Shown here: one piece after another, positions 44,559 through 47,885 of the stretch
Layout of the letters: every line of letters begins with the position of its first letter
How positions within the stretch are numbered: position 1 is the first letter of the stretch
NCBI RefSeq assembly: GCF_000371785.1
Contig: NZ_AQUI01000002.1
Location: 4,699,352-4,763,351 of the forward strand
Length of the DNA: 64,000 nucleotides
Source: Actinopolyspora halophila DSM 43834
Lineage (GTDB): Bacteria > Actinomycetota > Actinomycetes > Mycobacteriales > Pseudonocardiaceae
Reading direction: 5' to 3'
Made by a program: the position numbers and the translations under genes
Notes under the pieces: generated by a model
What the model was told of the DNA's origin: nothing
The model's input: only the letters and a program-made list of their open reading frames with translations
The model's database searches: none

Positions 44559-44655
44559 AAGCGCACCGCGTGCCTGTGCCAGAGGGCGGCAGGGCCTCGA
44601 CCTTCCGCAGAATCCGCGTCCGACCAGCGACAGCGACGAGCCGGAGCGAGCGTTC

Positions 44656-45840
44656 ATGCCAGCGGACTCGATCACGGAACTCACCACTCCACTGCGGACT
44701 CTCGATCCCGATGCCGACGACGCCGACCTGGGAGTGTTGCGCGAGGTGGTCGGGCGGGCCAGGGTCGTCTTCCTGGGCGAGAGCGCGCACTTCACCGCCG
44801 AGTTCAACCGGATCCGAGACCGGGTGCTGCGCTTCCTGGTGCGGCAACTGGGCTTCTCGGCGCTCGTGCTCGAGTCCGGACTGCCCGAGGGGCTCGCGGT
44901 GGACCGGTGGGTCCGGGGTGGTCCGGGTGAGCTCGCCGATGTCGCCCGCGACGGCCTCACCTACGAGTTCGGCCGCTGCGTCGAGATGCACGAGCAGCTG
45001 GACTGGATGCGCCGGTGGAACGCCGACCACGAGCGGCAGGTGGGCTTCCACGGCATGGACGTTCCCGGTTGGTGCGTTTCACCGGGACCCGGGGTCGCGG
45101 CGTGCCTGGAGCGGCTGCCCGCCGAGCCCGGCGACCACGAGCTGCTGCTGGCGGCCGACCTGGGGAGCAGGATCACTCCTCCTCCCGACCCGGCCGCCGC
45201 CCCGAGCGTGCCCGCGGGGCTGGCGGACGCGATCAACGAGCTGGTCGGTCGCGCCGATGCTGCGGGAGACACCGTGGCCCGGCAGTGCGCCCGTGGTGCG
45301 GCGCGGGTCGTGGAGTTCCTGGAGCACGGGCTCTACCCCGGCGCGGGCCGCAACCTGCGCAACGAGGTGATGGCCGAGAACCTGGAGCGGATCCTCGAAC
45401 GCGAGCAGCGCGTCCTGGTGGCGGGGCACAACGTCCACCTGCAACGCGCGCTCTCGTTCGACGGCACCACCTCGGTCGGCGGCCTGCTTGCTCCCGCGCT
45501 GGGCGAGGACCTGGTCGTCATCGGCGGTACGCACGCCTCCGGACGCGTGCCGGACCTCGATCCGGAGGCTCCCCCCGAAGGGCGTTACTTCGCGGCAGGA
45601 GAGGAACCTCCGCCTCCGGCGGAGCACACCCTGGAGGCCGCGCTCGACGCGGCCGGGCACCGGGCTCACCTGGTCGACCTGCGCCGCCTCCCGGAGGAGG
45701 CCCTCGCGGGCACCACCGCCCTCCGGGCGCAGACCCCGCACCACACCGTGCTGCTGGACACCGCACCGCGCGAGGCCTTCGACGCCGTCTGCCACGTGCA
45801 CGCCGTCCACCCCGCGCGGGGGGCCGCGGACGCTCCCTGA
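44656..45840 (+). CDS. erythromycin esterase family protein
   Basis: A 394-residue protein with the EreA/ChaN-like fold. The catalytic pair is visible in FLGESAHFTAEF (Glu42 and His45), with later VLESGLPEGLAVDRWVRGG, FHGMDVPGW, and VLVAGHNVHLQRAL carrying the second histidine. Some family members hydrolyse the macrolide lactone ring; most actinomycete copies are uncharacterised, so resistance is not implied. The C-terminal part (HTLEAALDAAGHRAHLVDLR) is normal. ATG 44656 has GGAGCGAG upstream. It follows the DUF3995 gene. Confidence 0.82.
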   Translation: MPADSITELTTPLRTLDPDADDADLGVLREVVGRARVVFLGESAHFTAEFNRIRDRVLRFLVRQLGFSALVLESGLPEGLAVDRWVRGGPGELADVARDGLTYEFGRCVEMHEQLDWMRRWNADHERQVGFHGMDVPGWCVSPGPGVAACLERLPAEPGDHELLLAADLGSRITPPPDPAAAPSVPAGLADAINELVGRADAAGDTVARQCARGAARVVEFLEHGLYPGAGRNLRNEVMAENLERILEREQRVLVAGHNVHLQRALSFDGTTSVGGLLAPALGEDLVVIGGTHASGRVPDLDPEAPPEGRYFAAGEEPPPPAEHTLEAALDAAGHRAHLVDLRRLPEEALAGTTALRAQTPHHTVLLDTAPREAFDAVCHVHAVHPARGAADAP

Positions 45841-45878: not shown

Positions 45879-46271
45879 TCACCGGAGGCGGTGGAGTCCG
45901 TCGAGGACGCGGCGCATGAGCACCAGCTCCGGGTGATCGAGCTCGTCACCGGCACCGCTGCCCGCCTTCGCGGCGGGAGCCGGTGCTGCCGGTTCCGGTG
46001 GTGCCTGCGGTGCGCCGGGCGGTGGACCGGGTCCGAACAGGTGCGGATGCCGGTCGGGGTCGTGCGGCGGCCAGCGGATGAGCTCGGTGGTGGGCTGTTC
46101 GGGGCGGAAGAGCGATTCCGGTTGGAGCGCTGCCAGGCGGCGGGCCGCACCTCCGCTGCCACCCGCGTGGCGGGGCCGGTAGCTGACGCGGTTGCCCCAG
46201 GCGCCGAGCACGACCGCCGTGCCCGCCAACAGCACCACCGTGCTCAGCAGCATCACGGGGTGCGTGCTCAT
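45879..46271 (-). CDS. small membrane-anchored hypothetical protein (third gene of small-ORF operon)
   Basis: A 130-residue protein with one N-terminal hydrophobic helix (VMLLSTVVLLAGTAVVLGAWG) and a Pro/Ala-rich cytoplasmic or extracellular tail ending DHPELVLMRRVLDGLHRLR. No family is recognised. Its ATG overlaps the preceding small gene by 4 bp, so it is translationally coupled. The three genes 46722-45879 run away from the XRE/DUF397 pair, sharing the promoter gap. Confidence 0.6.
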   Translation of the reverse strand: MSTHPVMLLSTVVLLAGTAVVLGAWGNRVSYRPRHAGGSGGAARRLAALQPESLFRPEQPTTELIRWPPHDPDRHPHLFGPGPPPGAPQAPPEPAAPAPAAKAGSGAGDELDHPELVLMRRVLDGLHRLR

Positions 46272-46510
46272 TCCGGATCACCTCGCCCGCCCGGTTCGTC
46301 GGAATCCACAGTGGTTGGTGAATGGCCGCCGCCGAAGGCGAGCGTCGCCGCGTGGTCGCGGAGCTCCCGGGCCAGGCGTTCCAGCACCCCGGCGGTCTCG
46401 GCGCACCTCTTGGCCGTGGCCCTGCCCGCCGCGATGTCGTAGGAGGCCTGCTCCAGCTCCCACTGCTCGTGGGCCAGCACGATCGCCAGCTTGCCCGCGT
46501 GAGTGGTCAC
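46268..46510 (-). CDS. small helical hypothetical protein (second gene of small-ORF operon)
   Basis: An 80-residue protein from GTG 46510, predicted nearly all helical (LAIVLAHEQWELEQASYDIAAGR, CAETAGVLERLARELRDHAATLAF) with a disordered acidic tail. The length and pattern resemble small WXG100-like or coiled-coil proteins, but no WxG motif is present. It has 4-bp overlaps with genes on both sides. Function unknown. Confidence 0.6.
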   Translation of the reverse strand: MTTHAGKLAIVLAHEQWELEQASYDIAAGRATAKRCAETAGVLERLARELRDHAATLAFGGGHSPTTVDSDEPGGRGDPE

Positions 46511-46722
46511 GACGCCTCACCCCCGCTCCGCAGCGCCGCGTCCAGCACGTCGCGCAGCTCGCGCGCCTGCTCCACCGTCCACAGCGTCCGGTGGTAGATC
46601 GTCGGCGTCCGAATCCGGATCCGCTCCCCCACCCGGGAGACCCGCAGTGCCGACGGGCCGGACTCGTCCCGGCAGGGCACCCGAGCTCCCGGACCCGACA
46701 GGTCCCTGGATCTCGACGACAT
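46507..46722 (-). CDS. small hypothetical protein (first gene of small-ORF operon)
   Basis: A 71-residue protein. ATG 46722 is chosen because GAGGAGG lies 8 nt upstream; the frame extends 7 codons further without support. The sequence is basic, with a beta-type segment SALRVSRVGERIRIRTPTIY followed by a helix WTVEQARELRDVLDAALRSG. No family is recognised. It is divergent from the XRE regulator across a 123-bp gap, suggesting shared control by that regulator. Confidence 0.6.
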   Translation of the reverse strand: MSSRSRDLSGPGARVPCRDESGPSALRVSRVGERIRIRTPTIYHRTLWTVEQARELRDVLDAALRSGGEAS

Positions 46723-46845
46723 GACGCGACCTCCTCGCCGCAATCAGCTTTCAATTTCTAGAAACAGCATGATTTTCCGGAAACAACGCCGCAATCGCTC
46801 GATCGAGTGTTCCTGTGAGGATTCACCACTGGATACGGTTGTTTC

Positions 46846-47694
46846 GTGGCCGGAAACAGCGAGCAGACACCCAAGGCACGTGCGCTCGGCGCCGAACTGC
46901 GGGAATGCCGCAACGACGCCGAGATGACGCAGCGCGCACTGGCTCAGCACCTCGACGTGAGCTACGTGACGTTGTCTCGGTACGAAAGCGGCGCAAGGAC
47001 ACCGAAACCGGAAGACGTCGCTCAGATCCTCACGACACTCGGGGTGCGGGGCGCCAGGTACCACGAACTGGTCGAGATGGCACGAGACGCCGATCAACCG
47101 AACTGGGTGTCCGGCCCGACCGGGGCACGGCGTGAGCTGACCACGCTGATCGAATTCGAGACCAGTGCCCAGCACATCACCGATGTGTGCACCGACGTGA
47201 TGCCCGGCCTGCTGCAAACTGCCGACTACGCCACCGCTGTCATGGGAGGTCACGCGGACGCGGACACCAACGCACGTGTGACCATGCGGGTGGGTCGTCA
47301 GAACGTCCTACACAGGACCGACGCACCCACGCTGGAAGTGGTCATCACCGAGCACACGCTCCGCGAGCCCCTCGGCGGCCACGACGTGCTGCTCGAACAA
47401 CTTCGGCACCTGGCCAAGATGAGCGAGCTCGACAACGTGACGATCAGGATCGTCCCCGACAGGTCCACCGAATGGACACCGGCGCACGCGGGCTCCTTCG
47501 TACTGTTCGAATTCGCCAAGGCCGCACCGATCGTGCACCTGGAGCACGTCGCCTCATCCACCTCCGTGTACAGCGCCCGGGAAACCCGGGCCTATCAGGA
47601 AGCGACTACTACGCTGCGCCGGATAGCGATGGCTCCTCACCAGTCCGTGCAACTCATCAGCGAAATCGCCGATCAACTGGAAAGGCATCGATGA
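46846..47694 (+). CDS. XRE-family regulator with DUF5753 domain
   Basis: A 282-residue protein from GTG 46846. The helix-turn-helix (about residues 12-67) reads LGAELRECRNDAEMTQRALAQHLDVSYVTLSRYESGARTPKPEDV. The C-terminal DUF5753 part includes MPGLLQTADYATAVM, VGRQNVLHR and APIVHLEHVASSTSVYS. Such regulators pair with DUF397 proteins in actinomycetes (WhiJ-like systems) and often regulate secondary metabolism or development. Its stop overlaps the DUF397 start codon (ATGA). The divergent small-ORF operon is the probable target. The upstream gap is AT-rich. Confidence 0.9.
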   Translation: MAGNSEQTPKARALGAELRECRNDAEMTQRALAQHLDVSYVTLSRYESGARTPKPEDVAQILTTLGVRGARYHELVEMARDADQPNWVSGPTGARRELTTLIEFETSAQHITDVCTDVMPGLLQTADYATAVMGGHADADTNARVTMRVGRQNVLHRTDAPTLEVVITEHTLREPLGGHDVLLEQLRHLAKMSELDNVTIRIVPDRSTEWTPAHAGSFVLFEFAKAAPIVHLEHVASSTSVYSARETRAYQEATTTLRRIAMAPHQSVQLISEIADQLERHR

Positions 47695-47885
47695 CTTCAC
47701 AGCACCCCTCCGGCTGGCGCACGTCCAGTCGTTCCAAGCAGCACACCCACTGCGTCGAAATAGGACACTTACCCGACGGCGCCGCCGTCCGGGACACCAA
47801 GAACCGCGCGGCGGGCCACCTCACCACCACCGGCCGGCAGTGGTCGGCGTTCATCGACGCCGTCAAGGCCGAACGCTTCGGCTGA
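47691..47885 (+). CDS. DUF397 domain protein
   Basis: A 64-residue DUF397 protein: HPSGWRTSSRSKQHTHCVEIGHLPDGAAVRDTKNRAAGHLTTTGRQWSAFIDAVKAERFG. The SGWRTSSRS start, CVE strand, RDTKN turn and W..F..VK end are the family signature. It is translationally coupled to the XRE/DUF5753 regulator, as in most actinomycete pairs; the small protein is thought to antagonise or assist its partner. A 13-bp stem terminator follows. Confidence 0.92.
   Translation: MTSQHPSGWRTSSRSKQHTHCVEIGHLPDGAAVRDTKNRAAGHLTTTGRQWSAFIDAVKAERFG

Follow-up and report, generated by a model that had tools for sequence, protein, structure and literature searches.

Actinopolyspora halophila DSM 43834 carries, in the 64,000-nucleotide stretch of contig NZ_AQUI01000002.1 analyzed here (positions 4,699,352 to 4,763,351; referred to below as the window, the coordinates of which are used unless a contig or locus is named), a compact block of five genes, consisting of a three-gene operon, A-B-C, and a divergent regulator pair, X-D. 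Comparison with other genomes of the genus shows that A-B-C and the divergent X-D form a conserved unit that has been multiplied in Actinopolyspora and that a cassette made up of the A-X gap, X and the 5' half of D moves between species as well as between loci, leaving A, B and the flanks mostly in place. The block is probably a switch of the WhiJ/BldB type, in which A-B-C would constitute a new effector operon under a swappable regulator cassette.

A conserved unit multiplied in Actinopolyspora

On the minus strand, the window copy comprises A (46507-46722; ATG start; 71 amino acids [aa]), the first gene of the proposed effector operon, B (46268-46510; GTG start; 80 aa), which represents the core family of the module, and C (45879-46271; ATG start; 130 aa). 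According to the open reading frame (ORF) listing, A and B overlap by 4 bp (46507-46510), as do B and C (46268-46271). On the plus strand, X (46846-47694; GTG start; 282 aa) encodes a WhiJ-like XRE/DUF5753 regulator, with Pfam matches to HTH_31 (2e-15) and DUF5753 (6.1e-47) above the cut-offs, and overlaps by 4 bp with D (47691-47885; 64 aa), which encodes a BldB-like DUF397 protein (Pfam DUF397, 7.2e-18) containing the CVE and RDTK motifs. The X-D pair diverges from A-B-C across a gap of exactly 123 bp (46723-46845), the shared promoter/operator region, which is exchanged together with X. The original prediction, made from the sequence alone, had described three small proteins of these sizes with 4-bp overlaps and a 123-bp gap shared with a divergent XRE/DUF5753-DUF397 unit; the ORF coordinates agree exactly with this layout, and the Pfam matches agree with the identity of the pair.

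A DNA search of the source genome (two contigs, 5.35 Mb) revealed several further copies of the block, and a protein search combined with the ORF listing showed the divergent arrangement of D-X and A-B-C at five additional sites, with partial forms elsewhere. The B family is present in all 10 Actinopolyspora genomes compared, with 6 to 15 matches each and 112 in total, of which 108 were placed (two pieces on G001:C30, as well as G007:C3:4 and G007:C22:77280, were left out). Complete modules, with D-X divergent from A-B, account for 74 of the 108 placed B genes, at 5 to 10 modules per genome, and 65 of the 74 include a recognized C. Two versions of A occur, the window type (A1) and a type that belongs to the Pfam zinc-finger family zf-HC3 (A2), and no likeness between them was noticed. 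The complete modules comprise 42 of the form D-X-A1-B-C, 23 of the form D-X-A2-B-C, and 5 and 4, respectively, without a recognized C, where C was called by hidden Markov model only, so that "without C" may mean unrecognized. Between the window genes and their same-locus orthologs in A. biskrensis and in genome G008, the ratio of nonsynonymous to synonymous substitutions (dN/dS) is 0.19 to 0.27 for A, 0.21 to 0.46 for B and 0.22 to 0.51 for C; these values, obtained by simple counting from few substitutions and without a significance test, are consistent with constraint on all three genes. Because dN/dS is below 1 for A, B and C and paralogs recur in the same genome, the block is not a chance assembly. 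Across the ten genomes the small genes stand beside XRE/DUF397 pairs and are conserved together, so that the earlier view of them as a set rather than scattered orphans holds.

At higher taxonomic levels, B was found at 1e-6 in at least 22 of 150 genomes and at least 7 of 46 genera of the family, and in at least 9 of 298 genomes and at least 3 of 76 genera of the order; these counts are lower bounds, with 37 and 19 candidates per genome scored, respectively. Among 20 regions inspected outside the genus, which cover 15 of the 16 genomes that matched in the family search, one has the order D-X-A2-B (G134) and two have D-X-B (G044 and G077), with a 73-aa zinc-finger-like ORF overlapping B by 4 bp in G077. 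At other loci in other genera (L122, L126, L129-L131 and L134), B homologs without X-D adjoin a small helix-turn-helix (HTH) gene of about 64 to 100 aa, in surroundings that give the impression, and only that, of integrative elements.

Replacement of the regulator cassette at fixed loci

The exchange is seen at the window locus itself. Compared in 100-base steps with the same locus of A. biskrensis, the flanks and A-B-C are mostly 87 to 99% identical, but identity falls to 45 to 69% from about the start codon of A through X into D and then recovers. The gap is 56% identical, against 94 and 97% for the two halves of A, and the window X is 44% identical to its A. biskrensis counterpart at this locus and 94% identical to that of G008. 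In the base-by-base alignment of the window with A. biskrensis, the outer junction lies at 46719-46723, with near identity from the start codon of A on, and the inner junction falls within D, at approximately 47774-47776. Thus, the exchanged cassette consists of the gap, X and the 5' half of D, whereas the 3' half of D stays. Junctions that are abrupt at the base level were found at the window locus and in one further locus group.

Pairs of modules from different genomes in which both flanks match were taken to represent the same locus, which yielded 58 pairs in 14 locus groups. X identity in these pairs is 37 to 54% in 37, 62 to 71% in 5 and 92 to 100% in 16. Median identities (with ranges) among the 37 swapped pairs are 91% (67 to 97%) for A, 92% (73 to 100%) for B and 73% (56 to 91%) for D, along with 81% (54 to 100%) for C, a rough figure given that some recognized C stretches are in the wrong frame. 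Swaps, defined by X identity below 60%, occur in 10 of the 14 locus groups, and one further group differs at 64 to 65%. Segment mapping of 13 hand-picked swapped pairs (10 from the 37 and 3 in which one flank matches) gave identities of 80 to 100% for the 3' half of D, 64 to 81% for its 5' half, 48 to 60% for the halves of X and 36 to 65% for the gap; the 5' half of A is 81 to 98% identical in 11 of these pairs and 64 to 68% in 2. In six unswapped pairs used as a contrast, X is 86 to 99% identical. The cassette is often replaced wholesale at one chromosomal locus, which is newly shown here. Among regulators of the XRE-TPR type that stand beside A-B without X-D, the reading frames were poor at several loci; where the frames looked right, the regulators are alike in some same-flank pairs (91%, 98% and 83%) and not in others. 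At four loci (L082, L084, L085 and L109), a second D with a stretch of X lies beyond the intact pair, and in L082, L085 and L109 the spacing points to a shortened X; these stretches look as if older cassettes had remained after replacement.

Rapid divergence of X in place, by co-evolution with D and without any exchange, would follow the main reading given to bldB/hpb in Streptomyces pratensis. There, of the 59 core genes that diverge most in an otherwise conserved core genome, 19 belong to these pairs, one of which was suspected of lateral transfer or gene conversion (PMC4239341). Applied to Actinopolyspora, this account is very improbable: the X identities leave a gap between 71 and 92%, the junctions are abrupt base by base, and close relatives of the swapped-in X are found at other loci of other species. 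Although the pairs are divergent in both organisms, the divergence in Actinopolyspora resolves into replacement of the gap, X and the 5' part of D, with junctions.

Clustering of the 74 X proteins at 75% identity gives 23 types, 20 of which are represented at two or more loci, to the extent that loci could be grouped. Same-type X pairs that were not recognized as same-locus number 80, some of which may nevertheless share a locus where a contig end hides the flank; 11 of the 80 cross the two kinds of A, and X types are found beside differing cargo. Within the HTH domain of X, the least conserved part is the stretch around the recognition helix expected for an XRE fold, and this stretch is flanked by conserved scaffold residues. 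Same-type X pairs are rare within a genome, with 2 observed against 9.2 expected in free shuffles (P = 0.002), or 1 against 4.7 when copies of one type per locus group are collapsed (P = 0.042). This within-genome non-redundancy is suggestive only, given that vertical inheritance also lowers the count. One case of redundancy is found in G004, where a module occurs twice, at C1:2270410 and 4377479 (L097 and L098), with identical X.

In lambdoid phages, conserved flanks enclose an immunity region whose repressor gene and operators are replaced as a unit, which gives rise to non-cross-reacting types. The swap pattern described here resembles this immunity-region swapping, by analogy with which the X types may likewise differ in cross-specificity; unlike the phage region, the Actinopolyspora cassette is chromosomal, multi-copy and equipped with a DUF397 partner, and no phage genes were seen in the block. 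A bolder and tentative proposal, less likely than not, is that the XRE/DUF397 regulator-operator types of Actinopolyspora, at least 23 in number, are mutually orthogonal and form a genus-wide pool, exchanged between species as immunity-like cassettes under diversity selection and nearly non-redundant in each genome, so that the modules would act as private, strain-identity-like switches over a shared A-B-C.

Gap dyads and the likeness to WhiJ-BldB modules

The window gap contains two putative operator dyads, both perfect 10-bp palindromes: TTTCCGGAAA at 46774-46783, 52 bases from the start of A, and TTTCTAGAAA at 46755-46764, 33 bases from it. The two are 19 bp apart, and the gap has a 14-bp self-match of 11 at period 19. 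Among representatives of the 23 X types, the best 14-bp self-match of the gap at this period averages 8.74, compared to 7.02 ± 0.23 in mononucleotide shuffles, and reaches at least 11 of 14 in 5 of the 23; within periods 12 to 29 the self-match peaks at 19, with 18 and 20 raised too. The longest palindrome arm per gap has a mean of 5.35, compared to 4.52 in dinucleotide shuffles. The dyads differ between X types, as exemplified by TGTCTCCGGAGACA, ATCTGGTGCACACCAGAT, GTGTTGCTAGCAACAC and a TGGTTCTAGAACCA pair, and many X types thus carry gap dyads of their own.

This anatomy is like that of the WhiJ-BldB modules of Streptomyces, including iosA-whiJ9-bldB9 and the WhiJ-BldB-AbaA sets, in which an XRE gene and a DUF397 gene face an effector gene across a repeat-bearing gap and which occur as many paralogs per genome (PMC10294661). 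In these modules the XRE protein acts on the neighboring effector gene iosA via repeats in the gap, where the WhiJ9 site consists of direct repeats; BldB, a DUF397 protein, does not bind DNA, and its loss strongly raises the expression of iosA and of abaA paralogs, and the bldB mutant is mimicked by co-overexpression of iosA and abaA6 (PMC10294661). In S. venezuelae, abaA lies near five of the ten paralog loci and one locus has iosA instead (PMC10294661). The Actinopolyspora block shares with these modules the XRE+DUF5753 protein, the adjacent DUF397 gene and the many paralogs, but not an AbaA-type (HATPase_c) effector. Instead, the effector place is taken by the three-gene operon A-B-C, for which Pfam rules out a HATPase_c AbaA. 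Further differences are that the window gap has dyads, in contrast to the direct repeats of WhiJ9 (PMC10294661), and that wholesale cassette swaps at fixed loci are shown in Actinopolyspora, unlike in the Streptomyces modules as described. The same two-gene XRE-DUF397 unit is represented by Scr1/Scr2 and their paralogs, the studies of which, in the parts covered, treat the pair and do not describe an A-B-C operon or exchange of the pair (PMC6262351, PMC10364602). A partial search of the open-licence literature yielded no earlier description of the A-B-C operon or of swapping of the gap with its regulator.

Given that the block has the WhiJ9-iosA anatomy with A-B-C in the effector place, X may bind the gap dyads and switch A-B-C, while D would bind X and hold it in check. 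If X behaves as WhiJ9 does on iosA, it would be an activator, although dyads so close to the start of A would also suit a repressor. Downstream of this switch, A, B and C would then affect growth, development or the products of the cargo genes that often follow them, and C would be located at the membrane. Swapping X together with its own operators would keep the switch working and change the regulator to which it responds. The original prediction of a dedicated system under the regulator is accordingly upheld as far as the conserved unit goes, with 74 of the 108 placed B genes in complete modules and the gap swapped along with X; the control itself is proposed by likeness to Streptomyces.

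Several observations weigh against a switch of this kind. With regard to the unit, 34 of the 108 placed B genes lack the full D-X-A set, some inspected loci have A-B next to a different XRE-type regulator or B next to a small HTH gene, and the source genome also holds X-D pairs without A-B. With regard to the operators, the arms of the window palindromes measure only 5, period 19 comes out best in 12 of the 23 type representatives, and dyads are not universal, arms of at least 6 being found in some member of 13 of the 23 types and in 31 of the 74 gaps. Moreover, the WhiJ9 site lies 113 bp upstream of iosA (PMC10294661), whereas the window dyads are only 33 and 52 bases away from the start codon of A. 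With regard to the exchange, the 58 same-locus pairs are not independent, 18 of them coming from one group. Among the 80 same-type pairs from different loci, median identity is 76% for the gap, 66% for the outer flank and 46% for B, but the measure allows gaps freely, so that 66% is about its floor and the excess in the gap is modest; in these pairs, the 3' half of D is as similar as the 5' half (both 81.5%). Phylogenetic trees provide a modest contrast as well, in which the locus groups require 23 changes for X and 17 for B (the minimum is 13 and shuffling gives about 36) and, for modules with the window-type A, 16 changes for X and 15 for A. Because the contrast between the trees is modest, recombination apparently affects A and B as well, and comparing modules at single loci gives the stronger evidence.

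Published views of XRE-DUF397 pairs differ, some favoring toxin-antitoxin (TA) systems and others regulators (PMC2701414, PMC6262351, PMC10294661). A TA role was predicted by Makarova in 2009 (PMC2701414) and adopted by Doroghazi and Buckley in 2014 (PMC4239341). If X-D were a type II system with an XRE antitoxin and a DUF397 toxin, A-B-C would be a passenger, swapping would reflect competition between addiction modules, and the near non-redundancy of X types within a genome would suit orthogonal antitoxins. We nevertheless regard this explanation as quite unlikely: in the conditions used there, Scr1/Scr2 did not act as a TA system (PMC6262351), DUF397 and WhiJ proteins are regulatory in Streptomyces (PMC10294661), and a TA pair would need neither a linked divergent operon nor a gap that is exchanged alongside X.

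Small proteins, downstream cargo and significance

The proteins encoded by A, B and C lack any Pfam family above the cut-off, and their best matches in NCBIfam (0.013) and PADLOC (0.016) are weak and were taken as chance. Against the PADLOC defense families specifically, A, B and D were unmatched, C matched only PglZ, at an E value of 0.016, and X matched only over its HTH part (best E value, 7.8e-8), so that none of these proteins was assigned to a described defense family. A and B had no match at an E value of 1e-3 among 72,556 plasmids, a search that did not include C, and B had none at the same threshold among 50,697 phage records, where A and C were not searched. The description of the three proteins as basic, helical and membrane-anchored in the original prediction applies in part, with one of the properties fitting each protein. 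A is basic (pI 11.0) and is modeled as four strands followed by a C-terminal helix (mean predicted local distance difference test score [pLDDT], 81.5); its fold had no significant match among PDB structures (best E value, 0.25), its sequence reached a best E value of 0.36 against the PDB, and its family alignment of paralogs and orthologs contains 41 rows. A relationship of A to DUF397, both being small proteins with strands followed by a helix, was rejected in a profile comparison (probability, 0.1%; E value, 0.5). B (pI 5.2) is predicted to be a helical hairpin, with helices H4-27 and H33-59 (mean pLDDT, 82.7); its matches among PDB sequences are mainly designed coiled coils (best E value, 3.3e-11), which were taken to reflect composition. 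C (pI 9.9) has a single N-terminal hydrophobic stretch from residue 6 (mean hydropathy, 2.33), followed by arginine-rich sequence, and its family alignment shows a proline-rich middle and a conserved C-terminal motif.

The hydrophobic stretch of C, which is likewise present in 44 of the 65 recognized C reading frames (a rough count, some frames being wrong), together with the toxin/immunity and WXG100-like neighbors of other modules, would fit the signaling or contact-dependent module suggested in the original prediction, in which C would display or transmit a signal at the membrane. By the positive-inside rule, though, the arginine-rich sequence after the stretch points the long part of C into the cytoplasm; in addition, 21 of the 65 C frames, with the same reservation about frames, lack the stretch, and the block contains no receptor or export gene. 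Deaminase or WXG100/type VII secretion system (T7SS)-like genes follow 20 of the 74 modules and are absent from the window copy. This suggestion is not supported, and we consider it improbable.

Recognized cargo follows the operon in 34 of the 74 modules. It comprises DddA-like deaminases (13 modules, 12 of them with Imm1), WXG100/T7SS-like genes (7 modules), ATP-grasp genes with a protein isoaspartyl methyltransferase (PIMT) (6 modules), PIMT only (2 modules), a radical SAM gene (1 module), Methyltransf_19 (2 modules) and an unnamed protein (3 modules), with families assigned from representatives and ten queries used for the search. In the other 40 modules, among them all three same-locus copies of the window block, no cargo was recognized with the ten queries, so few that "none recognized" is not proof of absence. 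This association might indicate that A-B-C assists in exporting, maturing or providing immunity to cargo such as graspetides, DddA-like deaminases and WXG100-type proteins, and that the window copy has lost its cargo. Such a role is unlikely: A, B and C of the three window-locus copies keep dN/dS below 1 with no cargo recognized, the kinds of cargo have no evident common chemistry, and cargo also follows A-B beside other regulators. Graspetide groups 11 and 13 may co-occur with a DUF397-DUF5753 pair, and group 13 almost always includes a PIMT (PMC13097080), as do some Actinopolyspora modules. Unlike these clusters, the window copy has no recognized biosynthetic genes, and the covered part of that report makes no mention of A, B or C (PMC13097080).

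Individual loci add to the range of genes next to the modules. In the source genome, A-B without X-D stands beside an XRE-type regulator at L118 (C2:352397-360564) and is followed by a graspetide-like precursor; further genes there cluster with the ATP-grasp and isoaspartyl methyltransferase genes of other loci. In A. xinjiangensis, a radical SAM/SPASM gene (L107:6899-7885, minus strand) follows the C gene in a possible cluster for a ribosomally synthesized and posttranslationally modified peptide (RiPP). A protein of about 146 aa with the motif RWRDHELHWHAHL (L010:5140-5580 and homologs) is encoded after several modules and belongs to no Pfam or NCBIfam family. Finally, an erythromycin-esterase-like gene in the window (44653-45840, plus strand, start uncertain; PF05139, E value of 2.4e-42) is oriented towards C and is retained at the same place in A. 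biskrensis and G008.

In the literature covered, the number and divergence of XRE-DUF397 pairs in actinomycetes have no settled explanation. The sharp replacement of the regulator together with the gap at fixed loci provides a concrete account of the divergence of the pairs, namely, recombination of specificity cassettes, which is testable through the predicted operators, the predicted non-cross-reacting pairs and the natural chimeras of D. In addition, A, B and C represent three small protein families without known function that are probable effectors, and their position at the head of RiPP and toxin/immunity operons offers a handle for genome mining.

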